The notes under the pieces are model-generated. The model saw only the letters and a program-made list of their open reading frames with translations. It did no database searches and had not been told where the DNA came from. From positions 1 to 64,000 of the forward strand of contig CALSMP010000011.1 in the NCBI GenBank assembly GCA_943787485.1: 64,000 bases of DNA, read 5' to 3'. The DNA comes from an uncultured Luminiphilus sp. (GTDB taxonomy: Bacteria; Pseudomonadota; Gammaproteobacteria; Pseudomonadales; Halieaceae). Position numbers and translations under genes: made by a program. This document shows, piece by piece, positions 41,644-64,000 of the stretch. Each line of letters starts with the position of its first letter. Within the stretch, counting starts at the first letter, position 1.

Positions 41644-42969
41644 ATGAACAGCACAAACTCAAGGTCTTTACTTCTGCTATCTCAGCGGTTTCTTTGGAAG
41701 GCGGTTGCTACTGTTTTGCTGACGGTAGCTCCCTTTTTCGCCCTACCAACACATTCGAGTGAGCAGGCCTCTCCCGAAACAGTAGGGATGTCCAGTGAGA
41801 GCCTCAAGTCCATGGCCAGATTGGCTAATCGTCACATCGAGGCGGGACATATTACTGGTGGGGTCACGCTGGTAGCACGGCATGGCAAATTAATTCATCT
41901 AGAGGCCCACGGCCAGCGAGGAACAGATGATGCGCGACCCATGACCACAGATGCGCTCTTTCGCATTTTTTCCATGACCAAACCGATCACCACCGTGGCA
42001 GCGATGATGCTGTACGAGGAAGGTTACTTTCACCTCAACGATCCGGTGGCCAAGTATCTGCCGGAACTCGCAAATCTCGAGATATACCATCAGGGCGAAT
42101 TAGTCCCAGTCGACCAACCCATCACCATCGAACACCTGATGACGCATACCGCCGGACTTACCTACGGCTGGGCCAGCGATCATCCGGTGGAACTGGCTTA
42201 TCAGGAATCCGCCTTGCAATACAGTGAAAACCTCGATGCCTTCCTTACCAAACTGGGCAAGCTGCCCCTGCGTTTTACCCCGGGTGAGCGCTATCACTAC
42301 AGTATTGCCACTGACGTACTGGGCGCTCTGGTCGAACGGTTAAGCGGAGAGACCCTGGAAGCGTTTTTGTCTACCCGACTGTTCCAACCCCTCGGCATGG
42401 ACGATACTTTTTTCAATGTCCCAGAGGACAAACTCGATCGTGTTGTTCCTAACCATGGGTGGAACCCAGAAACCAACACCCTGGGGCCGCTACCTGCCAA
42501 TTACCAGATGCCGATTCAGGGGGTCACCTTGTTCTTAGGGGGTGGCGGTCTGATCTCTAGCGCCAAAGACTATCTGATCTTTTGCGAAATGCTGCGTCAG
42601 GGCGGGTCCTACGGTGGAGTCCGTTTCCTCGGCCCTAAAACCGTTGAGTTCATGACCATGGATCACCTGACAGCAGACGTCCGCAACAAGGGCGCAACTG
42701 AGTATCCAGCGCAGCACCTCTACCCCGGTCAGTCCTTTGGGCTTGGCTTTGGTGTCATCACCAATCCTGCACAGACCGGTGTTATTTCCTCAATGGGCGC
42801 CTACTCCTGGGGTGGCGCTGCCAACACCAAGTTCTGGATAGACCCCGAGGAGGACTTGATCGCTATCTTCATGACCCAAGTGATGAATGCGCCCTTTGGA
42901 GATCAGCTGCGATTCGATATGAAGGTGGCTACCTATCAAGCGATCACCGAGCTAGGCAGTCAGCGCTAG
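41644..42969 (+). CDS. Secreted serine hydrolase, class C beta-lactamase/esterase fold
   Basis: A 441-residue protein with a signal peptide (hydrophobic segment within residues 10-38). The beta-lactamase-related motif S-x-x-K is present as SMTK (Ser about 110), and the catalytic tyrosine lies in YHYSIATD (about residue 217). These features fit family VIII esterases and D-aminopeptidase-like enzymes rather than true beta-lactamases. Late motifs are GGGGLISSAKDY and WGGAANTKFWIDP. I chose the ATG at 41644; the frame opens with a TTG nine codons earlier. The stop overlaps the convergent BCCT-like gene by four bases. Confidence 0.8.
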   Translation: MNSTNSRSLLLLSQRFLWKAVATVLLTVAPFFALPTHSSEQASPETVGMSSESLKSMARLANRHIEAGHITGGVTLVARHGKLIHLEAHGQRGTDDARPMTTDALFRIFSMTKPITTVAAMMLYEEGYFHLNDPVAKYLPELANLEIYHQGELVPVDQPITIEHLMTHTAGLTYGWASDHPVELAYQESALQYSENLDAFLTKLGKLPLRFTPGERYHYSIATDVLGALVERLSGETLEAFLSTRLFQPLGMDDTFFNVPEDKLDRVVPNHGWNPETNTLGPLPANYQMPIQGVTLFLGGGGLISSAKDYLIFCEMLRQGGSYGGVRFLGPKTVEFMTMDHLTADVRNKGATEYPAQHLYPGQSFGLGFGVITNPAQTGVISSMGAYSWGGAANTKFWIDPEEDLIAIFMTQVMNAPFGDQLRFDMKVATYQAITELGSQR

Positions 42970-44099
42970 ACCTGCTGAGGAAGCGACAGCTCGTCACGCT
43001 TTCGCCACACCCTATAAAAAATAGTCAGATAGATGGCGATCACCACCAAGCCTACCCACTCAATCTTAAAGGGCGTGAACTGGTAGAGGAGCACAAGCCC
43101 GAATAGCAGGCCCCAGTGCAGCCCGATGTATCGGACAGTACCCAATCGGGCCACGGTCAAATTGATGTTCTGGGTATACAGACGGGTGAGGGAATCCAGA
43201 GAGTTAATGACGAACAAGATACCAACCGCGATCATGCCCCAGCTCAGGGCAGGGACGATATCAATACCTTCCACGTGATAGTGGTACAGCACCGAGAACC
43301 ACACCGCTATCGGGATGGACGGCACGACCAAGAGAGCAAGGAGTAGCTGCCACGCTTTTATTCCTCCCACAAAGCGCGAGACAAATTGACCAATCATGAT
43401 GCTCCAGGCAAACCACCAGAACAGGTAAAAAGCGTGATAGTCGTTGATGGGCAAAACGAACTTGGGCAGGTTGGGAAAATAATCGCCGAGCGCTACCAGC
43501 GCACCACCCAGGCCGCTCCACCCCATGCCGGACAATAACCACGCGCCCACGATGAGCGTAAAAAACAAGCCGGTAGAGGTAACACTTAGTACCTTAATAA
43601 ACCGCAGGTGGGTGCTGGAGATAACCGCCAGTAACACCACCGTCGCAACAAGGCCAAATCGAACGGGTTCGGAGATTCCCTCTATATAATCGGGGAGGTA
43701 AACCAGAAACAGATAAGCGGTAAAGGCACAGGTACCGATAATCACGCCGTTATTTATGTGTTTTATCCACGGGTTCTCAAACAGCTTGAGCCTCGGCTCG
43801 ACAATGCAGAAGTAAAACGTCGTTAAAAAATAGAAGCCCCAGACAAGAAACCCCCAGAATCCAAACTCAATCGCAAGCGGATTGGTGAAACCGTACTCGG
43901 CCGCCTCGCCATAAGTCTGAAAATCCACCAGCGGGAACATGATCAAGCCGACATCGAGACCGGAGGTAAACAGGATCGCCAAAAACGTAAGCAGCGGCAG
44001 CGGCTCACTGCCCTCACACCGAATATGGCCCCATCGGAGCACCAGCCACACCGAGGTACTCATGGTCAAAATAATTGCTGCGGCCAATAGGGTATTCAT
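42966..44099 (-). CDS. Reduced, divergent BCCT-like transporter
   Basis: A 377-residue multi-helix membrane protein related to the betaine/choline/carnitine transporter family, but 120-150 residues shorter. Recognisable pieces are the glycine-rich helix (LFTSGLDVGLIMF, about residues 43-55) and the substrate-site signature FYLFWWFAW with S-x-F-V-G-G-I-x-A-W-Q-L and VWFSVLY (about 222-275). One of the glycines of the usual G-x-G-x-G stretch is replaced by Asp49. The first helix and the central region around BCCT helices 5-6 have no obvious counterparts. It is the last gene of the betB-phosphodiesterase-betA operon, which points to choline or a related cation as substrate (inference). A GAGGGCGG site precedes the ATG. 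Confidence 0.66.
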   Translation of the reverse strand: MNTLLAAAIILTMSTSVWLVLRWGHIRCEGSEPLPLLTFLAILFTSGLDVGLIMFPLVDFQTYGEAAEYGFTNPLAIEFGFWGFLVWGFYFLTTFYFCIVEPRLKLFENPWIKHINNGVIIGTCAFTAYLFLVYLPDYIEGISEPVRFGLVATVVLLAVISSTHLRFIKVLSVTSTGLFFTLIVGAWLLSGMGWSGLGGALVALGDYFPNLPKFVLPINDYHAFYLFWWFAWSIMIGQFVSRFVGGIKAWQLLLALLVVPSIPIAVWFSVLYHYHVEGIDIVPALSWGMIAVGILFVINSLDSLTRLYTQNINLTVARLGTVRYIGLHWGLLFGLVLLYQFTPFKIEWVGLVVIAIYLTIFYRVWRKRDELSLPQQV

Positions 44100-44124
44100 T
44101 GCGCCGCCCTCGCTACTAACCGCT

Positions 44125-45825
44125 TCACAGACCCGGCAGCTCTCTTACCGGCGATTCACTCCGCTGTCGGGTGGCCCATTCGGGATCCTGCCAGACAGCC
44201 ACATCGGCTCGTTGCATCGGTTTGCCCAAAATGAGATCCGCCGCGCGCTCCGCGAGCATGATGGTGGGGGCGTTTAAATTACCGTTAGGGATCGTGGGAA
44301 AGCTTGAGGAATCCACCACGCGTAAATTCGACACCCCCCGCACCCGACATTCATCATCGAGCACGGCCATGGAGTCTTCATCGCTGCCCATGGGGCAGGT
44401 ACAGGAGGGATGGTAAGCGGTCTCAACATTTTCCCTGACCCACTGATCAACGGCGTTATCGTCAGCCAAATCAATCGCCGGCTGAATTTCGTCACCCCGG
44501 AATCGATCGAGTGCCGGCTGCTGGAGAATCTCCCGGGTCAGGCGGAGACAGAGGCGCCAGTCCTCGCGATCTTTTTCGGTCGCGAGGTAGTTGAACTGTA
44601 TATGGGGCTCACTTTGCGGGTCCGGGCTGGTGAGCTGCACAACACCACGACTCTCGGGTTTGTTGGGGCCTACATGGACCTGAAAACCATGGCCTGCAAA
44701 GGCCGCTTTGCCGTCGTAGCGAATCGCCGCCGGGAGAAAATGGTACTGGATGTCGGGCCAAGGGATCCCTGCGCGGGATCGGATGAAACCACAGGACTCG
44801 AAGTGATTGCTTGCACCCAACCCACTCCGGTTCAGAACCCATTCGGCACCAATCAGAAATTTGGACCACCAATCGAGCTCGCCGTTTAGCGTAATGCCCT
44901 CCTTGCATCGGTACTGGAAATAAACCTCGAGATGATCTTGCAGATTTTCCCCCACGCCGGGTTTATCGAGCACTACTGGAATAGCCATACCCTGCAGCAG
45001 AGTTGCAGGTCCAATACCCGATCGCTGGAGAAGCGTCGGTGATCCTATCGACCCCGACGCCACAATGACCTCCCGACGCGCTTGCACAGAGTAGGTTTGA
45101 CCACCGCGACCATAGGTCACACCGGTCGCGGTCAGACCATCAAATTCAATGCGCTCAGCGGTTGCGCGGTCAATGATGCGGAGATTTTTTCGCGAACGCG
45201 CAGGGTCGAGATAGGCCAGGCGTGTTGAGCAACGTTCACCGTTGCGCACCGTCATATGCATCGGGCCGAACCCTTCCTGGCGAAAGCCATTGTAATCGGC
45301 TGTTTTCCCATATCCCGCCTGACACCCGGCGTCGATAAATGCACGGTATAGCGGGTTCTTCATGTTATTGCCGTTACAAGTCGAGAGTGGCCCCTCGCCG
45401 CCGCGATACTCGTCGCCGCCAGCCATCCAGGTTTCGGCGCGCTGAAAGTAAGGCAAGCAGTCCTGATAACTCCACCCCGTGGCACCTCGCTCTGCCCACT
45501 GATCAAAGTCACACGGATGACCCCGCACATAGACCATGCCATTGATGGCGGAGGAACCGCCGGCAATGCGGCCCCTAGCGCAATCCATACGTCTGCCATT
45601 GAGGGTGGGCTCAGGGGCACTGTAATAGCCCCAGTTAAATCGGGGCATCCCCATGGGGATCGTGAGCGCGGTCGGCATTTTGATAAAAAGCGACGTTTCG
45701 TCGCGGCCAGACTCGAGCAGGAGAACCTGTACCGAGGGATCGGCAGATAAGCGATTCGCCAGGACACAGCCAGCGGATCCTGCACCCACCACGATGTAAT
45801 CGAAGGTCTCTACCACGCTACTCAC
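44125..45825 (-). CDS. betA: Choline dehydrogenase-like GMC oxidoreductase
   Basis: A 566-residue GMC flavoprotein. The FAD motif is [15 protein letters not shown] (from residue 10), GMC signature 1 is [19 protein letters not shown], and signature 2 is the [16 protein letters not shown] segment. The C-terminal catalytic region reads [10 protein letters not shown] and then [19 protein letters not shown], as in BetA. It oxidises choline to betaine aldehyde at the membrane. Start is GTG at 45825 after AGGCAGAA. Located between the phosphodiesterase and the BCCT-like gene, with betB at the head of the operon, so assignment to choline is well supported, although other alcohols are possible. Confidence 0.85.
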
Positions 45826-45861
45826 TTCTGCCTATGTATCCTTTTTATTGGCGGGTATACA

Positions 45862-46917
45862 TCACCGAGCGATGAAGGATGAGCCGTCGAGGCCCTGCCG
45901 GACTGTCTCGGGAATATCCAGTTGCAAATGATCCGCGATGGAGGGGTAGATGTCGACTATCGCTGGCTTGGTATAGAAAGCGGGCTGTAATCGCTGGTTA
46001 TTGGTGACTATCCATGTGGTGCGCTCCCGCTCCGTCTGTCCACCATGATCTCGACCGGTTGCTTCATCGCGTCCGTGATCGGTCGTTACGATCACCAGCC
46101 AATCTTCCCGAGCCGACTGCTGTCGGGATTCCACCGCATTCCAAATCTTGGCGACTTGCTCATCGACCCATTCGACCGCAGCGTCCATCTCCGCACTGTC
46201 GCCAAAATCGTGGCCCACGTCATCGGTGTACTGCAAGTAGACCCACGCCAGGTCGGGCCCCTGCTCCCTGATACTTATCGCCGCCGCATCCGCGACTTTT
46301 TCATCGATGCGTTTAATGCGCTCACTCTCAGGGAGATCGGGAAACAGGCTTTTATCTTTTTCAAAGCCATCGACGACGTAATCTAGCTTGTGGCCTCCAG
46401 CCTCCTCTAAACCCTCCCCGAGCAACACGGTTCGATTGTCGGTCCAAGTGGAGTAGAGCGCGGTTGTTAAGGCTGGATTAGCGTTTTTTGCCAAGCGGAA
46501 AATATCCCAGTAGGCGTAGTTCGGGGATAAATCATAGTTCTCCATCACGCCATGTTTATTGGCCCAAGTGCCTGTAAGCAAGCCCATGTAGCCTGTCGCC
46601 GACACGGTTGGGCTCTCTGCCTGGGACCCCACAGGCCCACCCACATAAGCGCGACCATAGCCCCCCGCAGCGGCGATTTGATCGAGGGTCGGGGTAGCTA
46701 CACGTTCAATGACATCAGCGGGAATACCGTCGGCAATAACAAAGACAACTTTCGGGATCATCGTGATCTTCTCCTGAATATCTTGCGTCAGCTCATGACC
46801 GTCAGCAGCGCAAGGCGTTATCGAGACAGCTATAACCGATGTAAGAGCCCAAGCCAGCAGCGAGGTCTGTCGCCATGCGTCAGTCCACAACCTTTCTGGA
46901 CGAGTCAGCCACACCAT
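45862..46917 (-). CDS. Secreted NPP-like phosphodiesterase within the bet operon
   Basis: A 351-residue alkaline-phosphatase-superfamily enzyme with an N-terminal hydrophobic signal (about residues 18-38). The metal ligands can be traced: Asp63 in FVIADGIPADV, a nucleophile Ser/Thr in ESPTVSATGYMG, GHDFG and VTTDHGRDEATGRDHGG. The loop L-L-T-G-T-W-A-N-K-H-G-V is typical of nucleotide pyrophosphatase/phosphodiesterases. Its ATG overlaps the betB stop by one base (TAATG), and betA follows after 36 bases. The context suggests hydrolysis of choline phosphodiesters or phosphocholine in the periplasm, like NPP6; this is inference, and a nucleotide substrate cannot be excluded. Confidence 0.78.
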   Translation of the reverse strand: MVWLTRPERLWTDAWRQTSLLAWALTSVIAVSITPCAADGHELTQDIQEKITMIPKVVFVIADGIPADVIERVATPTLDQIAAAGGYGRAYVGGPVGSQAESPTVSATGYMGLLTGTWANKHGVMENYDLSPNYAYWDIFRLAKNANPALTTALYSTWTDNRTVLLGEGLEEAGGHKLDYVVDGFEKDKSLFPDLPESERIKRIDEKVADAAAISIREQGPDLAWVYLQYTDDVGHDFGDSAEMDAAVEWVDEQVAKIWNAVESRQQSAREDWLVIVTTDHGRDEATGRDHGGQTERERTTWIVTNNQRLQPAFYTKPAIVDIYPSIADHLQLDIPETVRQGLDGSSFIAR

Positions 46918-48422
46918 TAATATGTTGGCGCCACCGCCCCTAAATTGGCGTAGATGGTTTTGGTCTGCGTGTAGTACTCAATCGCCTGCAACCCGTTCTC
47001 TCGTCCCAACCCCGACTCATGGTAGCCCCCGAAAGGCACCTCGGGCGGCGTGACATTGTAGTCGTTAATCCAGACGATCCCTGCTTGCAGGGCATTGGCA
47101 ACCCGATGGGCCCGCGCAAAATCGGCCGTAAATACCGCCGCCGCCAAGCCAAAGCGCGTAGCGTTGGCTCGCGTAACCACCTCCGATTCACTCTCGAAGC
47201 CAAGCACCGTCATAAAGGGACCAAAAATCTCCTCCTGCACAAAAGGCAACTTATCGCCGGTGGCGGACACCACCGTCGGCGCAACAAAATAGCCTCCCTC
47301 GAGGCCCTCAACGGTGATTGCTTCGCCACCACAAAGCACCTCTGCCTCCGCCGAACTCGCGGCCAACGCCATGTAATGCATAACCCGCTCGCGTTGCTCC
47401 GCCGACACCAATGGCCCCATCTGAGTCGCAGGGTCAAAGGGGTTGCCGACCCGCAGTGCTCGGGTTTTAGCGACCACCCGAGACAAAAACGCTTCTTTTA
47501 GAGATTGGTGGACATAGACGCGCGTGCCATGAGAACAAACCTGACCGGTCGAATAAAAATTTCCCGCCATTGCCGCATTCACGGCGTCCTCAAGATGGCA
47601 GTCTTCGAAAACCACGATCGGCGATTTTCCGCCCAGCTCCAGCGTGACTTTTTTGAGATCGGCCGCGGCAGCAGCCATCACCCGCTTGCCGGTTTCCACC
47701 GACCCGGTCAGGGTGACCTTGGCAATATCGGGGTGGGATACCAACGCGCTGCCTGTTGCCGCAGCACCCTGTACGACATTAAAAACGCCGGAAGGGACGC
47801 CTGCTTCAGCATAAATTTCCGCCAGCCGCAGGGCCGTCAGCGGCGTTTGTTCCGCCGGCTTGAAAATCATCGCGTTGCCACAGGCTAACGCGGGTGCCGA
47901 TTTCCAGAGCGCTATTTGAATCGGATAGTTCCACGCACCTATGCCCGCGCAAATCCCAAGTGGCTCTCTTCGCATAATCGCAAAGGCTTCAGGCGGAAGG
48001 TCGATATGGGATCCCTGAATACCCTGAGCGATACCCGCATAATATTCGAGTACCTCGACCCCCGTGATGACATCGACCACCGATGTCTCCGCAATCGCCT
48101 TGCCGGTATCAAGCGTCTCGAGGGCGGCTAATTCATCATTACGCTCGCGCAACAGCGAGGCGGCGTTCCGCAAGATTTGCCCTCGCTGAGCCGCAGGCAT
48201 CGCGGACCACTGGGCAAAGCCACGCTGTGCTGATTCGACCGCCAGTGCGATCTCGGCATCCCCAGCAATCTCGACCTCACAGATCACCTCACCGGTCCCG
48301 GGATGGCGGGTCTCAAAACACGCACCATTGCTGTTGGACCGCAGCGCACCATCAATGAAGTTACGCTGTCGTGGCAGGGTCGTGGTCACATTCACATCGG
48401 ACAACTCATTGATTTCGGGCAT
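46917..48422 (-). CDS. betB: Betaine aldehyde dehydrogenase
   Basis: A 501-residue aldehyde dehydrogenase close to BetB. The NAD site is in FKPAEQTPLTALRLAE and TLTGSVETGKRV; the general base Glu is in VTLELGGKSP; the nucleophile Cys lies in STGQVCSHGTRVYV, which has the BetB-type flanks. It converts betaine aldehyde to glycine betaine. The ATG at 48422 has an AAGGAAAAAGA ribosome binding site, so the nine codons of open frame before it are left out. First gene of a four-gene operon with the phosphodiesterase, betA and the BCCT-like protein. No BetI-type regulator is nearby. Confidence 0.9.
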   Translation of the reverse strand: MPEINELSDVNVTTTLPRQRNFIDGALRSNSNGACFETRHPGTGEVICEVEIAGDAEIALAVESAQRGFAQWSAMPAAQRGQILRNAASLLRERNDELAALETLDTGKAIAETSVVDVITGVEVLEYYAGIAQGIQGSHIDLPPEAFAIMRREPLGICAGIGAWNYPIQIALWKSAPALACGNAMIFKPAEQTPLTALRLAEIYAEAGVPSGVFNVVQGAAATGSALVSHPDIAKVTLTGSVETGKRVMAAAAADLKKVTLELGGKSPIVVFEDCHLEDAVNAAMAGNFYSTGQVCSHGTRVYVHQSLKEAFLSRVVAKTRALRVGNPFDPATQMGPLVSAEQRERVMHYMALAASSAEAEVLCGGEAITVEGLEGGYFVAPTVVSATGDKLPFVQEEIFGPFMTVLGFESESEVVTRANATRFGLAAAVFTADFARAHRVANALQAGIVWINDYNVTPPEVPFGGYHESGLGRENGLQAIEYYTQTKTIYANLGAVAPTY

Positions 48423-48765
48423 TCTTTTTCCTTTTTGATAGACGCTCAAAGTACCCTCAACCCCACCGGCCGTCCACCCTCTTCAATCGGGTGAGGCCGC
48501 TTTTGACGGGCCGGGACCAAAGAATGGTAAGCCGTGAAAAATCATTTGTATTTTTCGCCTGGAAACTCTAGCTTTTGCCGGACTAATCGAAGGCTGGTGA
48601 GAACATGCTGGGCTCTAAGCTCCCGGTAAACACGAGTAACAGGTCCTCTGGGTTGTCGGCATGGGTAGGCGGCACAAGTCACCTGCGCGGATTGCCCGAT
48701 CGACTCACCGCACCTATAAAACCTACTCAGCGGCCCCGGCCCGACAGAAGTAAGGAACCGTTGCA
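48423..48765. other. Divergent regulatory region upstream of the bet operon
   Basis: About 340 bases between betB (minus) and the dioxygenase (plus). It holds an AT-rich stretch near 48535-48560 and a CTGGAAACTCTAGC segment, but no clear promoter pair or palindromic operator. A 54-residue frame at 48605 is treated as spurious. Confidence 0.4.
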
Positions 48766-52417: not shown

Positions 52418-52521
52418 GTCCGTCGGTTCCTTTTTGTGGTGCACGCAATTGTTGTGCCCGTGCTGCGATTGTTAGCGCAACACCGCACCTGTTATCCCAG
52501 TCGATTGACAAAGTTCCAAGG

Positions 52522-55531: not shown

Positions 55532-57073
55532 CTACCGACCCTTTAGCAAGCGACAAAGCTCTCGATCGGGGTGCGGTCTAAACGAGACCCCGTCGTTTAA
55601 TACGGCGGTCTGCTGAGTAGCAGACCAGGCGGGCCAAGGCCCTCCCTGATGGCTTTGTGGTCGACCCTGAGTGATAAATGACGTCCAGTAATCAAGGATG
55701 ACTGCGGTCAAATCATCGTCGACCTTGGACGAGGGTAGCCAGGCGTCATGGCGATCAAATACATAGGGAAGTTCCGCGCCGTGATAAGCGCCTATCGCGT
55801 CAAACCCTGGCCTGACACGATCAAATCGATAGACCCACGCGGCACCATCATTCTTTTCTATGAGTGATGCCAGCTCAAGAGAGGGACAGAGAAAATCCAG
55901 CGCCGTCCCCAGCTGGTTTCGCTGGGCCAGTTCATCGCCCGCCCCGCTGAGATACGCCCGTACGTCGTCCTGCTGCGTCAACGCCACCCGACTTTGCAAC
56001 AACTGATCAAGCGTGCCGCCGGCCTTTAAATACATTAAGCGCTCATCCGCATTGGTGCCGATCAGCATGGGAATCGCGGCGATACTGCCGCTTGCAGCCA
56101 TGCTTTCAAGGGTGACTGGGAGACTTTCCGGATCTTCAATGGGATCAAGCTGAAAGTCTGCGTAGACCTCTCCTGCCAGCGCCATAATGCGCTCCGATGG
56201 GACCTGCCTCAGGGCCTCCAACCCCGTCTGCCCATCGAGCGCACGTCGTGCGAGCTCGATGCCACGGGCCGTCGCCTCATTGCGATCGGGCGTGTCATCA
56301 AGCGGCCACCCGCCACTCTGATGGATGAGCCCGCCGACCCGGCCTCGACTCAAGGGGGAGACCGCGAGATGCAAGGCATTGGTCGCACCCGAAGATTCAC
56401 CCGACACGGTGATACGGTTGGGGTCTCCGCCAAATTTCCCAATATGCTGGTACACCCACTCGAGACTCATCGCGAGATCGTAGAGAGCCAGATTACGAGC
56501 TTCCATCTCGGGGTGGCTTAGCCAGCCAAACACCCCTAACCGGTAAGCGACGGTGACCACCACCACGTCCCGCTTTACTAGTGACTCTCCGTGGTAATTT
56601 GGCTCATAGCTCCAACCCCCCGTGTTGGAGCCCCCATGAATGAAGATAAGTACTGGCCGCTTACCCTCCGCATCCATGTCTGTCCAAATATTGAGGTAAA
56701 GGCAATCCTCCGAATAAACCGGGCCTTCCATAAGCGCGGGGTCCACACCCACTCGACGCATCATGCCGTGATACCAAGCCAGTCCGCTGCCGGTTTGCAT
56801 ACAGGCGGGAGCGAAGGCCGTGGCGTCATAGGGTCCTCCGTCACCTTGCCAGGGCACGGGTCGACGCCAACGTCGCTCACCCACCGGCGGTTGGGCAAAA
56901 GGGATGCCTCGAAAGGATTCGACCCCCGTGGAATCACGGTGGCCAATGAATGATGTATCAAAGACTCGCACCTGCGGCGCTTCTGAAGCAGTCGCATGAA
57001 CTGCGAGAAAGGCGAGAGCGCAGAAGCAGAAATAGCACCAAGAACTGATTAGAGCTGTCGTTGTATTGGTCAT
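55532..57073 (-). CDS. Secreted type B carboxylesterase
   Basis: A 513-residue esterase of the cholinesterase/carboxylesterase B family with a signal peptide (cleaved near ATASEA). Motifs: GIPFAQPPVGERRWRRP, the oxyanion H-G-G-S-N, and the nucleophile GESSGAT. Catalytic Glu is expected in NADERLMY and His in GAYHGAELPY. It follows the SDR gene on the same strand, in an island for choline and carnitine, so hydrolysis of acylcholines or acylcarnitines outside the cytoplasm is a reasonable but untested idea. Confidence 0.85.
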   Translation of the reverse strand: MTNTTTALISSWCYFCFCALAFLAVHATASEAPQVRVFDTSFIGHRDSTGVESFRGIPFAQPPVGERRWRRPVPWQGDGGPYDATAFAPACMQTGSGLAWYHGMMRRVGVDPALMEGPVYSEDCLYLNIWTDMDAEGKRPVLIFIHGGSNTGGWSYEPNYHGESLVKRDVVVVTVAYRLGVFGWLSHPEMEARNLALYDLAMSLEWVYQHIGKFGGDPNRITVSGESSGATNALHLAVSPLSRGRVGGLIHQSGGWPLDDTPDRNEATARGIELARRALDGQTGLEALRQVPSERIMALAGEVYADFQLDPIEDPESLPVTLESMAASGSIAAIPMLIGTNADERLMYLKAGGTLDQLLQSRVALTQQDDVRAYLSGAGDELAQRNQLGTALDFLCPSLELASLIEKNDGAAWVYRFDRVRPGFDAIGAYHGAELPYVFDRHDAWLPSSKVDDDLTAVILDYWTSFITQGRPQSHQGGPWPAWSATQQTAVLNDGVSFRPHPDRELCRLLKGR

Positions 57074-57164
57074 AGGAAACGTCTCACACGCAACACTTCA
57101 CAAGGGTCATTTCACAGGGGGTAAGTCAAAAAGGATAGGTCACAAAGTGCATCCAGCGTACCCT

Positions 57165-57935
57165 CTAGGCCAGGGTCTCTGTATGGCCATCGATAGCGAT
57201 AGCCTGCCCGGAGATATTGACGCCACCGGGACCCGCAAGAAACGTCACCATGGCAGCAATATCGTCGGCACTGACAAAGCGCTTAAGCGAGTTCTGTTGC
57301 TCATAGCGGGCTCGAATGTCAGCGGGCGACTGACCTCTCAATGCAGCGTCACGCTCAATAACCTGATCGATACGCGGACCGCTCACACTTCCCGGGCAGA
57401 TGGCGTTGACGCAAATATTCCAAGGGCCAAGCTCCATGGCCCACGTCTTGGCGAGACCCACAGCCGCCCATTTGGATGCGGCGTATGGTGATCGCTGGGG
57501 ACAGCCGAATAACCCGGCGTTGGATGCCATGTTGATAATCACACCGGACCGCTGCTTTTTCATCAGGGGAATGATGTGGCGCGTGACGTAGAAAAGGCTG
57601 TTGAGATCCGTGGCAATGGTGTTCTGCCACTCCTCAACGCCAATTTCTTCGAGAGGCGCCGTGGGGCCAGAGATACCGGCATTGTTCACCAGCAGGTCCA
57701 CCCGAGACAGGGAGGCAAGCAAATCAACAACCACCCTATCAACCGCTACCGGATCGGCAACGTCGCAGTGGATCGCCGTGTCCTCACCGTGGCGGGTACT
57801 GTAGTCCCGAAGAAACTCCCGATTGATATCGAGTACCACCACGCGGTATCCCTGTGTCCATAAAGCATCTGCGATGGTTCGACCGATGCCCGAAGCACCG
57901 GCAGTTACCAGTGCAACGGCTTGATCACTGCTCAC
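57165..57935 (-). CDS. Short-chain dehydrogenase/reductase
   Basis: A 256-residue classical SDR. The cofactor loop is TAGASGIGRTIA (usual G replaced by A in T-A-G-A-S-G-I-G), the NNAG motif is NNAGISG, and the catalytic residues are in N-M-A-S-N-A-G and S-P-Y-A-A-S-K-W-A. The GTG at 57935 overlaps the BCCT gene's end by 11 bases, so it is translated in coupling with the transporter; the open frame to 57971 adds residues without similarity. The substrate may be the compound imported by the transporter or a derivative, such as a hydroxylated betaine. Confidence 0.82.
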   Translation of the reverse strand: MSSDQAVALVTAGASGIGRTIADALWTQGYRVVVLDINREFLRDYSTRHGEDTAIHCDVADPVAVDRVVVDLLASLSRVDLLVNNAGISGPTAPLEEIGVEEWQNTIATDLNSLFYVTRHIIPLMKKQRSGVIINMASNAGLFGCPQRSPYAASKWAAVGLAKTWAMELGPWNICVNAICPGSVSGPRIDQVIERDAALRGQSPADIRARYEQQNSLKRFVSADDIAAMVTFLAGPGGVNISGQAIAIDGHTETLA

Positions 57936-59451
57936 TGACGACACGAGCTGCCGGTACAGGGTGATCCTCATTCAAGGATCGCAGCAGACCAATGGCCGCC
58001 AACCACAGGGTGGCAACCAGCGGTAGGGATACAACCAAGACCGCGGTCTGAGCCTCACGAATGCCCCCCGCATAGATGAGTGCAATGGGCAAAATGGCAA
58101 GCGCACCTGCCCAGAACAGACGATGCCACCGAGGTGGGTCTTCCATAGGATGAAGGGACTGCGTCGCGCTGGCTGCCAGCGTATAGGAAGCACTGTCATA
58201 GGTCGTCGCGCAAAAAATGAGCGTGACCACACAGAAGCTAGCGAGGATGAATTCCGCATAGGGCAGCGTATCCAGTCCCGCCACGATCGCGGCACTGCCG
58301 TCACGCTCAGACATGAGGGCTAAAAGGTCCATAGCGCCGCTAAGCTGTAAGCCAAGTCCGTGATGCCCAAGGACCAGGTAAAACGCCCAACAGCCCAGTG
58401 AGCCCATGACCAGCATACCCACCACCATTTCCCGCAGACTGCGCCCCTGAGAAATGCGGGTGACAAACAAACCCACAAAGGGACCGTAGGAAATCCACCA
58501 CGCCCAGTAAAAAACAGTCCAATCCTCAACAAACCCAGAGTCCGACATGGGATCAGTCCAAAAGGTCATGGCAACGATGTTTTGCATTAGATGGCCGATG
58601 GTGTTGACCGCCATCTTGAGCAGAAACAGCGTGTCACCCAGTACCACTATCAGTAAAAGCAACACAATCGCGATCACAATGTTGATATTGCTTAGCCGAC
58701 GTATCCCTTTGCCCAACCCGAGGCCCACGCTGGTGGCAAACAATACAACGCAAATACCCACGACAACCAACTCGAGGGTGAAGCCCAGGGGAAAGCCGGT
58801 AAGGCGGGATAACAACGCAGAAATTAAGGGCGTAGAGAAACCCAGGGAACTGCCCGCACCGCCGATCAATGCCACCATAAAAAACACATCCATAAGACGA
58901 GAAGGCAGTGAGGTTTCTTCACCTTTAAACCAATAGTGGCCAGAGATACTGTACTTCAGGCGCGGTAATTTCCTGACGTAAAACGGATACGCGATAGCCA
59001 AGGTGGGTAGACAATAAAGCGACCAGGCGATCACTCCCCAGTGGTGTATGCCATAGGAGGCTGCCCACTGATAGGCCTCCGCCGAGCCTGGTTCAGCGCC
59101 GAAGGGCGGTCCATTGACGTAGTAAGCCCACTCAATCCCGCTCCAGTACATCAGTCCAGCCCCAATACCGGCAGCGAACAACATGGCGCCCCAACTAAAG
59201 GTGGAAAATTCAGGTGGCGAGTCACCCAAGCGAATCTGACCATGGCGGCTTATGCCGATGTACAAAACGATGATTACCGCCAACGCACCGGTTAGCACAT
59301 AAAACCAGCCAAAGGAGCGGGTAATCCAGTCATAGGCTGTCTGCAAGACCTCAGCGCTCCATGCCGGGGCAAACAGGAGTGGTATAGCCAAACCCAGCAA
59401 CACGAGGACTGTTAGCGAGAAATTTACTCTATCAACACGCGGTGACGTCAC
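57925..59451 (-). CDS. BCCT family betaine/carnitine/choline transporter
   Basis: A 508-residue transporter with twelve hydrophobic helices. It shows the glycine-rich helix 3 (FAAGIGAGLMYW), the FGLGTS-like segment S-V-G-L-G-L-G-K-G-I-R, and the signature W-T-V-F-Y-W-A-W-W-I-S-Y-G-P-F-V-G-L-F-V-T-R-I-S. In BetP and CaiT the aromatic box has WWxxW; here the last Trp is Tyr. It lacks the long charged C-terminal tail of osmosensing BetP, so it is probably a catabolic uptake system. Start is GTG at 59451 after AAGGAACAGCA. It is coupled to the SDR gene. Confidence 0.9.
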   Translation of the reverse strand: MTSPRVDRVNFSLTVLVLLGLAIPLLFAPAWSAEVLQTAYDWITRSFGWFYVLTGALAVIIVLYIGISRHGQIRLGDSPPEFSTFSWGAMLFAAGIGAGLMYWSGIEWAYYVNGPPFGAEPGSAEAYQWAASYGIHHWGVIAWSLYCLPTLAIAYPFYVRKLPRLKYSISGHYWFKGEETSLPSRLMDVFFMVALIGGAGSSLGFSTPLISALLSRLTGFPLGFTLELVVVGICVVLFATSVGLGLGKGIRRLSNINIVIAIVLLLLIVVLGDTLFLLKMAVNTIGHLMQNIVAMTFWTDPMSDSGFVEDWTVFYWAWWISYGPFVGLFVTRISQGRSLREMVVGMLVMGSLGCWAFYLVLGHHGLGLQLSGAMDLLALMSERDGSAAIVAGLDTLPYAEFILASFCVVTLIFCATTYDSASYTLAASATQSLHPMEDPPRWHRLFWAGALAILPIALIYAGGIREAQTAVLVVSLPLVATLWLAAIGLLRSLNEDHPVPAARVVSEQ

Positions 59452-59646: not shown

Positions 59647-60954
59647 ATGAGACTCGAGTCGATTCCCGTCAGATGGCGATTCTTCTCAGTTATTTTTATG
59701 CTGAGCTTTCTGTCTTATCTCATGCGACAGAACATTCATGTGGCGGGCGAACACATGATGCCCGAACTCAATATTTCAGAACTTCAGATGGGCTGGATCT
59801 ATGCCAGCTTTATTTGGGGGTATGCCGCCTGTCAGCTACCCGGCGGAATACTCGGACGCTTGTTCGGACCCCGCAAGACATTGATGGGCGCCGGCTTTAT
59901 CTGGATCCTTGCATCTGGACTCACGGGGTTCCTGCCAGGATCGGTGGTCACCTCAGCTACCGGCGTATTGGTCGCGCTTGTTGTCGTACGTTTCTTTTTG
60001 GGCGCCGCTCATGCGCCGATGTATCCAGTGCAAGCGGCCGCCATAGAGCGCTGGTTTCCAGTGGGACAGTGGGCGCTGCCGAATGCCGTTTCAAGCACCG
60101 GGCTAACACTAGGCGCCGCGTTAGCCCAGCCCCTTGTAGCCATTGTCATGATCAATTGGGGCTGGCGTGCCTCGTTCTACATGTTCGTTCCGCTGGGCAT
60201 ACTGTTCTTCTGGATCTGGTGGTGGTACGCCCGGGATAACCCGGCGGAACATCCGGCCATGACCGAGCAGGAACTCGACTTGATTTACGCTAATCGCAAT
60301 AGCCTTACACAGGAAGCCGGATTTGGCGCCTGGAAGTCGCTGCTGAAAAATCGCGAAACCCTGCTACTTGCAGCGGCTTATTTCACCCAAAACTACGTTT
60401 TCTATTTGTTCTTCACCTGGTTCTTTCATTACCTGGTGACTGAGTTGGGCTTTAGTATTTTAGAGACTGGGTTCCTCGCAGCGCTTCCGTGGATAACGGG
60501 CGCCGTCATGGCGACCCTCGGGGGTCTTACCTGTGATGCCCTCTGTGCTCGCTGGGGGCCCCGACTGGGCTGTCGGGTGCCCGCCATGATCGGGCTGACA
60601 GCTTCAGGAATCTTGCTCTATGTCGGGTTGTACTCACCCTCGCCCTATGTCGCTGTCGCCCTACTTTCGCTGTGCTTTGCCGGCACACAGTTCGCCGAGG
60701 GCGCTTTCTGGTCGGCGCAAATTTTCGTGGCCGGACCTTACAGCGCGCCAGCCTGTGGCTTGATGAACACAGGGGGTAATTCAGCGGGGATCATTGTTGC
60801 GCCCCTGATGCCCTTTTTAGCGATGCACATTGGCTGGGTACCAGCACTCTCAACCGGTAGCGCGCTCGCCTTTATCGGTGCAATTATCTGGCTGTTCATT
60901 CGAGTTGATCGACCCTTCACACCGGCACAGCAAGCGGTATCGGCTGCCATCTGA
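59647..60954 (+). CDS. MFS transporter, anion:cation symporter type
   Basis: A 435-residue major facilitator with twelve helices. The first helices read YLMRQNIHVAGEHM and GYAACQLPGGILGRLFGPRK, which match the ACS (anion:cation symporter) branch used for organic acids and sugar acids. A GGAG site precedes the ATG. The gene is divergent from the BCCT gene and converges with the Rieske gene, so it may import a substrate of the right-edge enzymes (inference only). Confidence 0.85.
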   Translation: MRLESIPVRWRFFSVIFMLSFLSYLMRQNIHVAGEHMMPELNISELQMGWIYASFIWGYAACQLPGGILGRLFGPRKTLMGAGFIWILASGLTGFLPGSVVTSATGVLVALVVVRFFLGAAHAPMYPVQAAAIERWFPVGQWALPNAVSSTGLTLGAALAQPLVAIVMINWGWRASFYMFVPLGILFFWIWWWYARDNPAEHPAMTEQELDLIYANRNSLTQEAGFGAWKSLLKNRETLLLAAAYFTQNYVFYLFFTWFFHYLVTELGFSILETGFLAALPWITGAVMATLGGLTCDALCARWGPRLGCRVPAMIGLTASGILLYVGLYSPSPYVAVALLSLCFAGTQFAEGAFWSAQIFVAGPYSAPACGLMNTGGNSAGIIVAPLMPFLAMHIGWVPALSTGSALAFIGAIIWLFIRVDRPFTPAQQAVSAAI

Positions 60955-60970
60955 GCACGTCCGCGGCCTA

Positions 60971-62242
60971 TTAATCGCCGGTCGGGGGGCAGTTCTGGCT
61001 GAGGGTCTTTCGATACCAGGCAACGAAATGTTTCAGGGTTGCCTCGAATTCCGGATGATAGGGGCCGGGCTCAAAAAACCGTGAATTCACCCCCATGCTG
61101 TTGCGCATGATGATGTATTCGTCCTCCAGCGTCGTGTGGTGCCATAGCCAAGTCACCTCATCAAGCTGATAGTCGACCCCTTCGACGGCATCACCACGGA
61201 CAAACCAAACAACCTCAGCGTCAGTTGCTGTCAGGCTCCTCGGCAAGAATCGATACAGCACGCAGTGATCGGGATAATTAAGCATGAAGCTCAATGGGCC
61301 CATCTGATAATCACCCGCGCCGCCGTCGTAATCTTTGATCTGACCCATCAGAGGCGCCACCGGCTGTCCGTCCTGGCTGCCCGTGACAAAACCCTCGTAG
61401 AGGCCATAACGCATAGTGTGCACGCAGGCACCAAAGCTCTCAGCGTCGCTATAGGTCTTTGTGTAGCGCTTTGACATACCGACCACACCCGTGACCTCAT
61501 CGGATCGCGCCAGCATTGCTTCAACGATAGGCGCCGATTTTTCATAGAGATCTTTAAAGGTGTGCAGCTTAGCGTAAGCACGATGCGACGTGGCGCAGTG
61601 ATAACACTCGAGGTAATTTTCCAGCACCAGCTTCCAGTTTGCATCGATGCGATAGGTATGCCGATGGGCAACTTTTGCATTTGCTAAGTCGTAAGCACCA
61701 AGCGGTTCTCGAAGATTTTCAAGGGGCGCCAAAAAATCTCCCGCGTCGGGGTCGCAGTTAATGAATACTAGACCCACGTACTCAACACACTGCACTGTCT
61801 TTAAGCGGTACTGTGTTGAATCAAAATCCGCCATCACGTGGGTTTCGCGCGCGGCCTTTAGGGACCCGTCGAGCTCGTAAACCCATCCGTGGTAAGGGCA
61901 AACAAAAGTTTTTCGATTACCGGCTCGGTCTTCGCAGACGCGAGCACCTCGGTGTCGGCAAATATTGTGCATGGCACGAATCACGCCGTCTTCACAACGC
62001 ACGATGATGAGTGCGTCTTCCCCGATTTCAAGCAGTTGGTAGTCGCCGACGCTGGGAATTTCGCTGGCATGGAGCGCATAGATCCAACTTTTAAAGATCA
62101 GATGCTCGAGCTCGAGTTCGTGCACGAGATGCGAACGATAAAAGTAGGGATCCATTGCACGCTCGGGCTGGGCACTGTCCGCTGCCAGCTTGGCGCGCAA
62201 TTCGTCGATCGAATCGTCAACGTGAGTCGCTATCAGATGCAT
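60971..62242 (-). CDS. GbcA/CntA-like Rieske non-heme iron oxygenase, alpha subunit
   Basis: A 423-residue Rieske oxygenase. The 2Fe-2S site is C95-x-H97 and C115-x-x-H118. The mononuclear iron site follows at E-N-Y-L-E-C-Y-H-C-A-T-S-H (His215, His220). Residue 212 is Glu where most Rieske oxygenases have the bridging Asp, as reported for the carnitine oxygenase CntA and relatives. The protein fits the glycine betaine monooxygenase, carnitine oxygenase or stachydrine demethylase group. With betaine-forming genes nearby, glycine betaine demethylation to dimethylglycine is most likely. No reductase partner is present in the window. It follows the GcvT-like gene by 36 bases. Confidence 0.83.
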   Translation of the reverse strand: MHLIATHVDDSIDELRAKLAADSAQPERAMDPYFYRSHLVHELELEHLIFKSWIYALHASEIPSVGDYQLLEIGEDALIIVRCEDGVIRAMHNICRHRGARVCEDRAGNRKTFVCPYHGWVYELDGSLKAARETHVMADFDSTQYRLKTVQCVEYVGLVFINCDPDAGDFLAPLENLREPLGAYDLANAKVAHRHTYRIDANWKLVLENYLECYHCATSHRAYAKLHTFKDLYEKSAPIVEAMLARSDEVTGVVGMSKRYTKTYSDAESFGACVHTMRYGLYEGFVTGSQDGQPVAPLMGQIKDYDGGAGDYQMGPLSFMLNYPDHCVLYRFLPRSLTATDAEVVWFVRGDAVEGVDYQLDEVTWLWHHTTLEDEYIIMRNSMGVNSRFFEPGPYHPEFEATLKHFVAWYRKTLSQNCPPTGD

Positions 62243-62278
62243 TGAAAGTCACTCTTCACGGGTTCGCAGACACACGTT

Positions 62279-63463
62279 TCAATGCGGTGGCGCTGGTGTC
62301 TGACGCCGCCGAGCAGGATTGAACAAGGGTGCATCAATGACCTTGCAAGGTGCCAATACCTTTGTCCAATGCAACTCGCGCTGGTAATAAATTTCCGCAA
62401 CAAGCGCATCGGTGGACTCACCATGAGGCATTTGAATTTGTGCAAAGGCGAGGTTTGTTTTGGCTGTTGGGCACCAAGCAGCTGACGTAACGGTGCCTAT
62501 CGTTTTGCCATTTTTTAGAATAAACGAATGATGCGCCGGCTTGTTTCCCTCGACATCGAGTAACACAAAGCGATACGTGCAGCCCGTTTCCTTTTGCCGC
62601 AGCAAGGCCTCCCGGCCGTTGAAGAGCGGCTTGGCAAAATCGACCTGCCACGCCAAACCCAGCTCGAGGGGGGTCCGGGTTCTGCCGGGACGAACAGCTT
62701 CTTCGGCAGGCACGAAGTCTACCCGCGCCTGCAGGAACCCAGCCTCTATACGCGCAATGTTGAGGGCATAAGACCCGATAGGCTTGATGAGATAGTCTTT
62801 ACCCACCTCAAAAAGACGATCCCAGAAAACCTCGGCTTTCTCTGGCGCGATCCAGATTTCATAGCCTAGGTCACCGGTAAATCCGGTTCGACTGACGGCC
62901 AACGGCACACCATCGAATTCATAATGCGCAATACCAAAGGGCTTTAGCTGATTGAGATCGGTACATCCCAAGAGCGTCAGCACAGTGCAAGAGGTTGGGC
63001 CCTGAACCGCCAAGGCAGCAACGTCATCGCTCTCATTCTCAATAACGACATCGAAACCCAGCGCGCACCAAGCTAACCATTCATCGGCTCGCTGATAGGA
63101 GCACAATCTGAACTCGTTCTGGCCAAAACGGAAAATCGTACCGTCATCCAGCATCTCACCTGCATCATTGCACCACACCGCATAACCGACTCGATTGACG
63201 CCAATCTTGCTGACATCGCGGGTTACCATTCTGTTGAGAAATGCCTCGGCATCGGGACCGGTAATGCGATACTTGTTGATAGGGGAAAGGTCGAATACTC
63301 CCGTGGTGCTCCGAATCGCAAAGTATTCAAGTTCGACATCAAAATAGGCGTTGGGCGTGGTGTACCCCATCCACACGCCCCAGTCGTTTAGCTCGCAAAC
63401 GTCGGCGATACACCGATGAAAAGGTGTTGTTAACAACATAAGGTTACGATCTGGCGAGGTCAT
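62279..63463 (-). CDS. GcvT-family aminomethyltransferase-like protein
   Basis: A 394-residue protein of the glycine cleavage T-protein/DMSP demethylase group. It opens with TTPFHRCIADV and then GYTTPNAYFDVELEYFAI, followed by VFDLSPINKYRITGPDAEAFLNRM, which is the folate-binding barrel, and the C-terminal barrel with GLAWQVDFAKPLFNGREALL. Such enzymes move one-carbon units from N-methyl or S-methyl substrates to tetrahydrofolate. The ATG at 63463 overlaps the upstream FAD gene by four bases (ATGA); an upstream open frame is ignored. Between a FAD oxidoreductase and a Rieske oxygenase, it probably handles methyl groups of betaine or dimethylglycine. Confidence 0.8.
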   Translation of the reverse strand: MTSPDRNLMLLTTPFHRCIADVCELNDWGVWMGYTTPNAYFDVELEYFAIRSTTGVFDLSPINKYRITGPDAEAFLNRMVTRDVSKIGVNRVGYAVWCNDAGEMLDDGTIFRFGQNEFRLCSYQRADEWLAWCALGFDVVIENESDDVAALAVQGPTSCTVLTLLGCTDLNQLKPFGIAHYEFDGVPLAVSRTGFTGDLGYEIWIAPEKAEVFWDRLFEVGKDYLIKPIGSYALNIARIEAGFLQARVDFVPAEEAVRPGRTRTPLELGLAWQVDFAKPLFNGREALLRQKETGCTYRFVLLDVEGNKPAHHSFILKNGKTIGTVTSAAWCPTAKTNLAFAQIQMPHGESTDALVAEIYYQRELHWTKVLAPCKVIDAPLFNPARRRQTPAPPH

Positions 63464-64000
63464 GACAACGCTCCTTGCCGCAAAATCTCTTGCGCTGCAT
63501 TCCGTCCAGCAAGCCCCATCAGTCCTCCCCCAGGGTGCGCGCCCGCGCCGCAAAGAAACAGACCTGGCACCGCCGACTGATACTGGGTCGACCCAGGAAA
63601 CGGTCGCATCATAAGCGCCTGATCAATCGACAATTCCCCGTGGTGCCAGTTACCCCCGGTAATTCCGTAGCTCGCTTCAATGTCCGCGGGAGTCAACAAC
63701 TCCACCTGAGTGACAAGCGACTTCAGGCCCGGCGCATAGGCTTCAAGCTGATTAAGTAATTGCGCCACAACCTGCGACCGAATGGCCTCCCAACCCTCCT
63801 TGGGCGAGTGAGGCAGGTAATGAACCAAGGCGGTCATGACGTGCTGACCGGCCGGCGCCAGACTGGGATCTTCAATACTGGCGATACTGATATCAAATAG
63901 CTGTTGATCGCCCACCTCCCCGTACTTAATGGGATTGAGCATAGCCTCCATGTCATCCATCGATGGTGCAATAATCAGCCGCTGAGAGAGCTCCGCGGTG
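63460..64000 (-). CDS. CrtI-like NAD(P)/FAD-dependent oxidoreductase, C-terminal part
   Basis: The last 179 codons of a larger flavoprotein; the frame is open to the window edge. The C-terminal FAD-binding signature is clear: P-G-L-F-L-C-G-A-G-A-H-P-G-G-G-L-M-G-L-A-G, typical of the phytoene desaturase/PYROXD2 family. The N-terminal dinucleotide fold lies beyond the window. It is the first visible gene of a three-gene operon with GcvT-like and Rieske genes, and stops at TGA overlapping the GcvT start. Its substrate is unknown; oxidation of an N-methyl amine would fit the context. Confidence 0.82.
   Translation of the reverse strand, partial: TAELSQRLIIAPSMDDMEAMLNPIKYGEVGDQQLFDISIASIEDPSLAPAGQHVMTALVHYLPHSPKEGWEAIRSQVVAQLLNQLEAYAPGLKSLVTQVELLTPADIEASYGITGGNWHHGELSIDQALMMRPFPGSTQYQSAVPGLFLCGAGAHPGGGLMGLAGRNAAQEILRQGALS

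Follow-up and report, generated by a model that had tools for sequence, protein, structure and literature searches.

In the present work, we describe a gene island located in a 64,000-nucleotide stretch of an uncultured Luminiphilus genome (positions 1 to 64,000 of contig CALSMP010000011.1, or C11:1-64000, hereafter the window; the genome comprises 2.67 Mb in 23 contigs and is 89.7% complete). This island is modular and combines a bet-type choline unit, a carnitine core (BBOX-like oxygenase, BKACE and carnitine dehydrogenase) and a demethylation unit. Its chemistry is mostly known, and it is a real, modular and partly joined quaternary-amine catabolic supercluster. We consider it probable that this chromosomal supercluster turns choline- and carnitine-type quaternary amines into glycine betaine, which would then be demethylated. 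A previous sequence-only reading of this DNA had already proposed that all substrates converge on glycine betaine before demethylation; this shared hub is still the best inference that can be drawn from the protein families, the motifs and the modular order, although every substrate and the joint operation of the units are deduced in the same way. In searches with the BKACE, the closest named relatives were Luminiphilus and Halieaceae assemblies.

Regarding the genes themselves, those listed by the sequence-only reading are located where it had placed them, and Pfam and NCBIfam models back the families of betB, the AP-superfamily phosphodiesterase, betA, the BCCT-like transporter, the TauD/BBOX-like oxygenase, BKACE, carnitine dehydrogenase, GDPD, BCCT, SDR, carboxylesterase, GcvT and Rieske proteins. 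The catalytic motifs from which the main enzymes had been assigned are all intact. Within the four packed minus-strand runs that had been described, neighbours indeed overlap or lie at most 91 bases apart, but three plus-strand genes between the runs had been overlooked, coding for an IPNS-like 2-oxoglutarate oxygenase (48766-49746), an M20 hydrolase (53958-55517) and an MFS transporter (59647-60954). The edges formerly given (42966-64000) proved too narrow, the conserved block extending from ~34.3-36 kb to contig base 66649. It begins to the left of 42966, since in both arrangement types of the relatives (joined and split) the short BCCT has the FAD oxidoreductase of 40199-41557 as a neighbour; on the right the last operon passes the window end and, with genes for two flavoproteins resembling CrtO, reaches contig base 66649. 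The "FAD" gene of the FAD-GcvT-Rieske run is thus a flavoprotein gene as announced, but there are two CrtO/phytoene-desaturase-like genes and not one. The choline unit and its convergent neighbours contain:

40199..41557, plus strand: FAD-dependent oxidoreductase (PF12831), convergent with the short BCCT unit
41617..42969, plus strand: beta-lactamase-fold esterase (PF00144, 6.7e-67; SMTK motif)
42966..44099, minus strand: short BCCT-family transporter of 377 residues (PF02028, 4.5e-8 over part of the model)
44125..45825, minus strand: betA, choline dehydrogenase (TIGR01810, 765.4 bits, cut-off 732.1)
45862..46917, minus strand: AP-superfamily phosphodiesterase (PF01663, 7.7e-20)
46917..48449, minus strand: betB, betaine-aldehyde dehydrogenase (PRK13252, 730 bits, cut-off 593)

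The carnitine core, together with an accessory gene, contains:

49731..50513, minus strand: GDPD, glycerophosphodiesterase, accessory (PF03009, 2.9e-40)
50541..51506, minus strand: L-carnitine 3-dehydrogenase without thioesterase domain (PRK07531, 496 bits, residues 2-315 on a 495-residue model)
51506..52444, minus strand: BKACE of the dehydrocarnitine-cleaving type (PF05853, 3.5e-99)
52522..53766, minus strand: BBOX-like 2-oxoglutarate dioxygenase, likely gamma-butyrobetaine 3-hydroxylase (TIGR02409 and TmpA models; PDB matches to TmpA and BBOX)

Finally, the demethylation unit contains:

60971..62242, minus strand: Rieske oxygenase of the quaternary-ammonium type (GbcA model, 281 of 670 bits; ECYHC at 212)
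62279..63553, minus strand: stand-alone GcvT-like, tetrahydrofolate-dependent protein (PF01571, 2.9e-56; trimethylamine N-oxide (TMAO)-demethylase model, 258 of 1100 bits)
63460..64000 and on to contig base 65025 (L008:8460-10025), minus strand: FAD2, CrtO/phytoene-desaturase-like flavoprotein
contig 65012-66649 (L008:10012-11649): FAD1, CrtO/phytoene-desaturase-like flavoprotein

From these identities we draw the following scheme, in which the substrates, the hydrolase export, the joint working of the units and the role of FAD1-FAD2-GcvT are all inferred. Probably exported phosphodiesterases, the carboxylesterase, the beta-lactamase-fold esterase and the M20 hydrolase would cleave esters and phosphodiesters and thereby free the choline or carnitine head groups, the full-length BCCT, the short BCCT and the MFS transporter would import them, and GDPD may cleave glycerophosphocholine inside the cell. 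BetA, plus BetB where present, would convert choline into glycine betaine. The BBOX-like oxygenase would hydroxylate gamma-butyrobetaine to L-carnitine, which carnitine dehydrogenase would oxidize to 3-dehydrocarnitine, and BKACE would use acetyl-CoA to convert the latter into betainyl-CoA and acetoacetate; a thioesterase would then release glycine betaine. The Rieske oxygenase would take off the first methyl group and FAD1-FAD2-GcvT would move the later ones onto tetrahydrofolate. Such a convergence has precedents in the literature. Indeed, the carnitine and choline routes meet at glycine betaine in P. aeruginosa (PMC5806209) and in R. pomeroyi, in which CdhABC, BetABC and a BCCT are seen by proteomics (PMC12478193). 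Moreover, Pseudomonas sp. AK1 grows on gamma-butyrobetaine and possesses the hydroxylase and carnitine dehydrogenase (PMC2131755), and in V. penaeicida choline genes are reported to lie directly upstream of betaine catabolism genes (PMC12093977).

The family-level identities, the motifs and the conserved modular order are directly seen. BKACE matches were obtained in 32 of 58 genomes, own included. For the tally of gene order, we used 37 Luminiphilus genomes (own plus 36), many of which are incomplete or fragmented; four more, in which BKACE was not searched, were omitted, and G713, G006 and G008 were treated as the same assemblies as L101, L091 and L093. The three markers BKACE, short BCCT and GcvT occur together in 19/37 genomes, BKACE and BCCT in 3/37, and BCCT and GcvT in 3/37 (one tallied BKACE, in G031, is a contig-end fragment). 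Among the 22 genomes holding both BKACE and short BCCT, the two genes lie at most 30 kb apart in 11 and on different contigs in 9; the other 2, G005 and G030, have them on one contig at distances of 155 and 146 kb. BKACE and GcvT are at most 30 kb apart in 8 of 19 genomes and on other contigs in 11. These proportions, 11/22 and 8/19, support the choline-core and core-demethylation linkages as parts of one system, and the three units stand together in 4/37 genomes (G000, G002, G006, G008).

The sequence-only reading had held that scattering of these genes in related genomes would speak against a system. The joined order is kept in several relatives, but the choline unit is scattered in five (G005, G016, G019, G030, G035), in which it forms a separate ordered block of betB, phosphodiesterase, betA, short BCCT and FAD oxidoreductase, the phosphodiesterase not being found in the G030 unit. 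The choline unit stays together even when located elsewhere, which speaks for the supercluster reading. No BKACE turned up in the surrounding 18-20 kb examined in these split genomes; a full BCCT is nearby in G016, G030 and G035, a carboxylesterase in G016 and G030, and an SDR in G016. In the BKACE tree, the split genomes form one supported clade (100/98) with G001, G007 and G017, whose arrangement is not scored, and no genome scored as joined falls inside it. The carnitine core of G005 and G035 is still accompanied by M20, MFS, Rieske, GcvT and two FAD genes, all of which are missing around the core of G030. Scattering thus applies in part to the choline unit and less to the core with its demethylation unit.

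An alternative is that independent choline, carnitine and N-methyl-compound (Rieske-GcvT-FAD) units are merely close together and constitute no single pathway. The separation just described in one clade, including the 146-155 kb in two single-contig genomes, would fit this view, as would the occurrence of single markers (BKACE only in 3/37 genomes and GcvT only in 2/37) and the occurrence of FAD1-FAD2-GcvT next to aminotransferase and polyamine-type ABC transporter genes, as well as in stretches lacking BKACE. However, the joined order is kept across lineages at ~50-86% protein identity when most other flanking genes are not, and the core and the demethylation unit stay joined in G005 and G035 though the choline unit is elsewhere. 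Because the proteins of relatives are mostly only ~50-86% identical and yet have the same order, this order is kept beyond chance. As a control of the flanks, 27 left and 24 right mechanically defined open reading frames (ORFs) were searched against 26 stretches of related genomes, matches being accepted at E<=1e-20 with identity and coverage of 40% or more; the control is partial as these stretches end at differing distances. As far as they reach, only the ORFs at 36055, 36657, 37469 and 38232 (span 36055-39614), plus the ORF at 34251 in G008, recur beside the block outside the nearest relative, G002, and they do so in both arrangement types; four right-flank ORFs recur in G002 alone. We therefore regard mere proximity of independent units as rather unlikely.

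The carnitine core of the earlier reading is supported, and this supports the supercluster as a catabolic system. Among the best 80 of at least 574 confirmed candidate loci, BKACE is 65-86% identical to the Luminiphilus protein and 69 loci have a carnitine-dehydrogenase homologue (E<=1e-12); in the window, the two genes overlap by one base. A BBOX-like gene is found in 15 of these 80 loci, nine of Luminiphilus type (L091, L092, L093, L095, L096, L097, L099, L100, L101) and six others (L104, L106, L107, L129, L162, L168). In HTCC2148, a single stretch contains BKACE, the BBOX-like gene, betB, both BCCTs, the FAD oxidoreductase and an esterase, with no carnitine-dehydrogenase match. Of note, PhyH-type dioxygenases adjoin the cluster in G006 (L324:6761-7609) and HTCC2148 (L162:3379-4239).

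Several observations weigh against a single pathway as drawn above. The units are separable, seven of the 37 genomes having none of the three markers and others BKACE or GcvT alone. Carnitine dehydrogenase is below its cut-offs (PRK07531, 496/592 bits; PRK07066, 300/414), for which the absent C-terminal domain may account in part in the case of PRK07531, and the BBOX-like protein is under both equivalog cut-offs (TIGR02409, 248.8/414.75; TmpA, 250/400). The step from betainyl-CoA to betaine is without a candidate gene: a betainyl-CoA thioesterase domain query gave only 26-30% matches in the five Luminiphilus genomes searched (5/5), compared with 59% in G039 and 47% in G044, this domain being fused to carnitine dehydrogenase in L168 and G039. 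No betB was obtained at E<=1e-120 in three of the eight genomes searched, G008, G010 and G015 (82, 82 and 99% complete), all of which have betA. The Rieske protein, with 281 bits on the GbcA model, is far under the cut-off of 670; neither a Rieske reductase nor a regulator was found among the island genes scanned, no genome-wide GbcB search having been made. Moreover, 10 of the 12 FAD1-FAD2-GcvT stretches compared are without BKACE and carnitine dehydrogenase and, among the 80 BKACE loci, the trio appears within the 10-kb flanks only in Hoeflea, these flanks being too short to reach the Luminiphilus trio.

The gamma-butyrobetaine entry claimed by the sequence-only reading is consistent with the location of the BBOX-like gene beside the dehydrocarnitine enzymes, but less so with its scores and its pocket. 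The protein is equally near the TmpA and BBOX models and keeps the iron motif (HTD at 234, LHGR at 374). Positions W181, N191, Y194 and Y366 are those we take to shape the pocket, in human BBOX numbering; W181 and Y366 equivalents are retained and those of N191 and Y194 are T and N. In an alignment of 13 rows, six being of Luminiphilus type, the Y194-equivalent is N in these six and L129 and Y in the other 6/13, the N191-equivalent is T or S in the six and N in 4/7 others, the W181-equivalent Trp is retained in all six, and the Luminiphilus-type rows carry an insertion shortly before the iron motif. Since the next two enzymes form the dehydrocarnitine route, gamma-butyrobetaine is most likely the substrate, as far as gene context and motifs can tell.

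It is also conceivable that the BBOX-like and Rieske enzymes act on other betaines (e.g., proline betaine, a sulfonium analogue or an N-methylated amino acid), the island serving wider or different zwitterions. The changed pocket at the Y194- and N191-equivalents points in this direction, together with the best solved relatives of the Rieske protein, namely 3n0q and 3vca/4qup, the latter being the stachydrine demethylase Stc2, a name also found in PMC10952381. The extra old-yellow-enzyme (OYE)/trimethylamine dehydrogenase (TMADH)-like gene and second Rieske gene of G006 and G008 go the same way. Against this, the BBOX-like gene shares its run with BKACE and carnitine dehydrogenase, BKACE is close to that of loci of which 69/80 have a carnitine-dehydrogenase homologue, and the W181-equivalent Trp is kept in the six Luminiphilus-type rows. 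We regard a specificity for other betaines as rather unlikely.

Regarding the putative demethylating end, its support comes from the Rieske protein, which has the Rieske cluster motif and in which ECYHC corresponds to the ECxxC motif of group V; its GbcA score is low and no reductase is seen among the scanned island genes. According to PMC10952381, group V (quaternary-ammonium) oxygenases carry this ECxxC motif, with a bridging glutamate and cysteine pair. A canonical GbcA elsewhere in the genome did not emerge from the two of four further PF00848 matches that were scored, which reach 124 and 82 bits, below the 281 of the island protein.

The FAD1-FAD2-GcvT trio was followed beyond Luminiphilus. 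GcvT matches were found in 15/274 class-sample genomes (E<=1e-40, own included), of which G177, G212 and G223 (39-55%) were examined, the remaining 11 (34-38%, mostly within ~750-820-residue frames) staying outside the comparison of neighbourhoods, and in 11/398 phylum-sample genomes (E<=1e-60, own included), of which 8 of the 10 others entered the comparison, G375 and G486 being left out. The comparison thus comprised 11 genomes plus Hoeflea marina, which was found via BKACE and is therefore not independent. FAD1, FAD2 and GcvT are contiguous in 12/12 stretches, including in other Proteobacteria, and a Rieske protein (25-40% identical to that of the island) is somewhere in 8/12. In 2/12, G634 and Hoeflea marina, BKACE and carnitine dehydrogenase adjoin the trio, which supports its tie to carnitine; the trio-carnitine gene link recurs and is not the rule. 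Aminotransferase and polyamine-type ABC genes are beside the trio in G177, G223 and G634, and a ligase-ACAD-ECH set (44-64%) adjoins it in G212. The island has no dimethylglycine dehydrogenase-type fusion of FAD and GcvT, FAD1, FAD2 and GcvT being three genes. The window genome, incomplete as it is, has two frames resembling SoxA but, unlike G005, G030 and G015, no GcvT fusion frame of 800-900 residues (DgcA was not searched), so that the trio could have a part in demethylating dimethylglycine. As a marker of methylene or methyl transfer, the conserved Asp of the GcvT protein was discarded: DD is common to GcvT and SoxA, and the final D is also found in a DmdA-like protein.

We tentatively propose, as a reading with a minority of the chances, that FAD1-FAD2-GcvT may be a folate-linked oxidative N-demethylase, a split counterpart of dimethylglycine dehydrogenase acting behind a group V Rieske oxygenase. 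In this proposal, the two CrtO-like flavoproteins would oxidize an N-methyl group and pass its carbon to the separate GcvT, possibly on carnitine- and choline-derived betaines in Luminiphilus and in other Proteobacteria such as Hoeflea marina and G634, and the short BCCT, deprived of the first helix and of much loop sequence, would be a minimal choline importer.

The bet-type choline unit is also supported. BetA has as best PDB match an oxygen-dependent choline dehydrogenase (7e-187), and BetB misses only the TIGR01804 cut-off (653.5 vs 668.6). The unit's betB, like the GDPD of the core, is present in the window but not constant among relatives. Indeed, betB is found inside the choline unit of G005, G030 and G035, and GDPD at the locus in G002 (74%), G020, G024, L096 and L098-L100 (46-51%), GDPD not being detected there in G006, G008 and G015. 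In R. pomeroyi, another aldehyde dehydrogenase may replace BetB, less efficiently (PMC4744692). The phosphodiesterase at 45862..46917 has a weak PDB match to nucleotide pyrophosphatase/phosphodiesterase and occupies a position comparable to that of the choline sulfatase betC in other bet clusters. L099 has a GDPD-MFS-betA-short BCCT run and, in HTCC2148, a PAF-acetylhydrolase-like protein adjoins the short BCCT, which would fit choline release from larger molecules. A mutual replacement of GDPD and phosphodiesterase was rejected: L091-L093 have the phosphodiesterase only and L099-L100 GDPD only, and both are present in the window, G002, G020, G024 and L098. The FAD oxidoreductase adjoins BCCTs in joined and split genomes (78-85% identity, 97% in G002); it is ~4 kb from the short BCCT in G713 and, in HTCC2148 (75%), is beside betB and BKACE. 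The beta-lactamase-fold esterase adjoins it in joined genomes and not in the five split choline units.

The short BCCT aligns with full BCCTs (hhalign 94.7%, 267 columns, starting near BCCT residue 62) and its best PDB profile match is "High-affinity choline transport protein" (E 1.8e-8); a structure predicted from six sequences was too poor to be used (pLDDT 41, pTM 0.31), and profile comparison took its place. Its length of 377 residues is maintained in relatives. Matches at E<=1e-10 occur in 1/273 other class-sample genomes (G117, a fragment, 56%), and HTCC2148, outside the class sample, has one at 62%. In G010, the gene is spread over two frames (L059:3371-4484).

Genes betA and betB are standard osmoprotectant genes, and the choline unit could accordingly serve osmoprotection by glycine betaine synthesis and not catabolism. 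However, a nutritional role is suggested by the hydrolases, the TonB receptor and the neighbouring genes for carnitine cleavage and demethylation. In addition, the short BCCT lacks the C-terminal extension, an absence proposed as a sign of nutrient and not osmotic choline uptake (PMC4744692). A purely osmoprotective role is hence quite improbable, and we retain catabolism.

Compared with known systems, the island shares with the P. aeruginosa caiX-cdhCAB-hocS operon (PMC5806209) carnitine dehydrogenase and a BKACE-type enzyme leading to glycine betaine as well as an ester hydrolase in the cluster; it adds a BBOX-like gene, has BCCTs in place of CaiX and the ABC system, and has no close thioesterase homologue and, among the scanned genes, no AraC-type regulator. 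Many Rhodobacterales and Rhizobiales loci obtained with BKACE combine this enzyme (~70% identical) with a carnitine dehydrogenase-thioesterase fusion (~55% for the dehydrogenase), a protein described in S. meliloti (PMC12482172), whereas the Luminiphilus protein ends after the dehydrogenase domain and is accompanied by a BBOX-like oxygenase. In Hoeflea and L168, an acyl-CoA dehydrogenase-ligase-hydratase set beside the fusion locus might provide a CoA route for gamma-butyrobetaine. The R. pomeroyi bet operon with betT and betC (PMC4744692) has in common a BCCT, betA, betB and an AP-superfamily hydrolase, the island having a phosphodiesterase-like protein for betC, a 377-residue BCCT for BetT and no betI among its scanned genes. 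With GbcAB, DgcAB and SoxBDAG (PMC12093977), it shares a Rieske first demethylase and folate-linked later steps; unlike GbcAB, its Rieske protein is far under the GbcA cut-off and has no GbcB beside its gene, and unlike DgcAB, it has CrtO-like flavoproteins and a separate GcvT. Dimethylglycine dehydrogenase, TMAO demethylase and SoxA have the GcvT domain in common with it, the DD position being shared with SoxA and GcvT, but fuse this domain, while the island GcvT is separate and its flavoproteins belong to the CrtI/CrtO family. In the literature searched, which covered few subscription papers, we did not find a description of FAD1-FAD2-GcvT with carnitine genes, of carnitine in Luminiphilus, of this combination of units, of the short BCCT or of the missing thioesterase.

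Luminiphilus is a member of the marine OM60/NOR5 group and, if our reading is true, the linked gene set ties it to plankton lipid and osmolyte turnover. Why pathways cluster can be studied naturally by setting the joined clades beside the split ones. FAD1-FAD2-GcvT, as a candidate for a step of demethylation not yet assigned, can be put to the test, and the minimum size of a working BCCT may become apparent from the short BCCT.

Finally, the block comprises further genes between the units and at its left edge:

34251..35333, plus strand: another phosphodiesterase-like gene of the AP superfamily, marking the left edge (PF01663, 5.8e-7; matched next to the block in G008 alone, at 63%)
35375..37343, minus strand: TPR-sulfotransferase gene, three ORFs in the window (TPR and PF13469 matches, synteny)
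37469..39888, minus strand: TonB-dependent receptor, three ORFs in the window (PF07715, PF00593)
48766..49746, plus strand: IPNS-like 2-oxoglutarate/Fe(II) oxygenase (PF03171, PF14226; HxD, H and RxS motifs)
53958..55517, plus strand: M20-family hydrolase, divergent from the BBOX-like gene (PF01546, PRK09133)
55532..57073, minus strand: carboxylesterase, COesterase family (PF00135, 8.6e-84; GESSG motif)
57165..57971, minus strand: SDR dehydrogenase (PF00106/PF13561; YxxSK)
57925..59451, minus strand: full-length BCCT transporter (PF02028, 2.8e-140; TIGR00842, 431 bits, cut-off 408)
59647..60954, plus strand: MFS transporter, divergent from BCCT (PF07690, 1.1e-48)

Hydrophobic N-termini, recognized by eye, make export probable for the phosphodiesterase, the carboxylesterase, the M20 hydrolase and the beta-lactamase-fold esterase. 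The M20 hydrolase is beside the core in G002, G005, G006, G008, G010, G015, G020, G024 and G035 and not in G030, and the MFS gene is kept in G002, G005, G006, G008, G015 and G035. An SDR match (E<=1e-12) occurs in 27/80 BKACE loci including Luminiphilus, mostly at ~40% outside this genus and often beside carnitine dehydrogenase; SDRs being common, a D-carnitine dehydrogenase is kept as a lead only. The IPNS-like oxygenase is kept in G002, G006, G008, G010, G015, G020 and G024, and it is conserved alongside the joined island, also in UBA4452 (L101). In G006 and G008, the extra OYE/TMADH-like gene and second Rieske gene lie between BCCT and MFS (L324:1912-5315, L056:6261-9561). The TPR-sulfotransferase is one ORF of 656-668 residues in G008, G015, G016 and G019 and the TonB-dependent receptor one of 805-812 residues in G008, G016 and G019; either assembly error or decay may account for their broken state in the window. 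Farther right on contig C11, an old-yellow-enzyme-like frame, judged so by inspection, is broken into two ORFs that overlap (71211-72445, L008:16211-17445).

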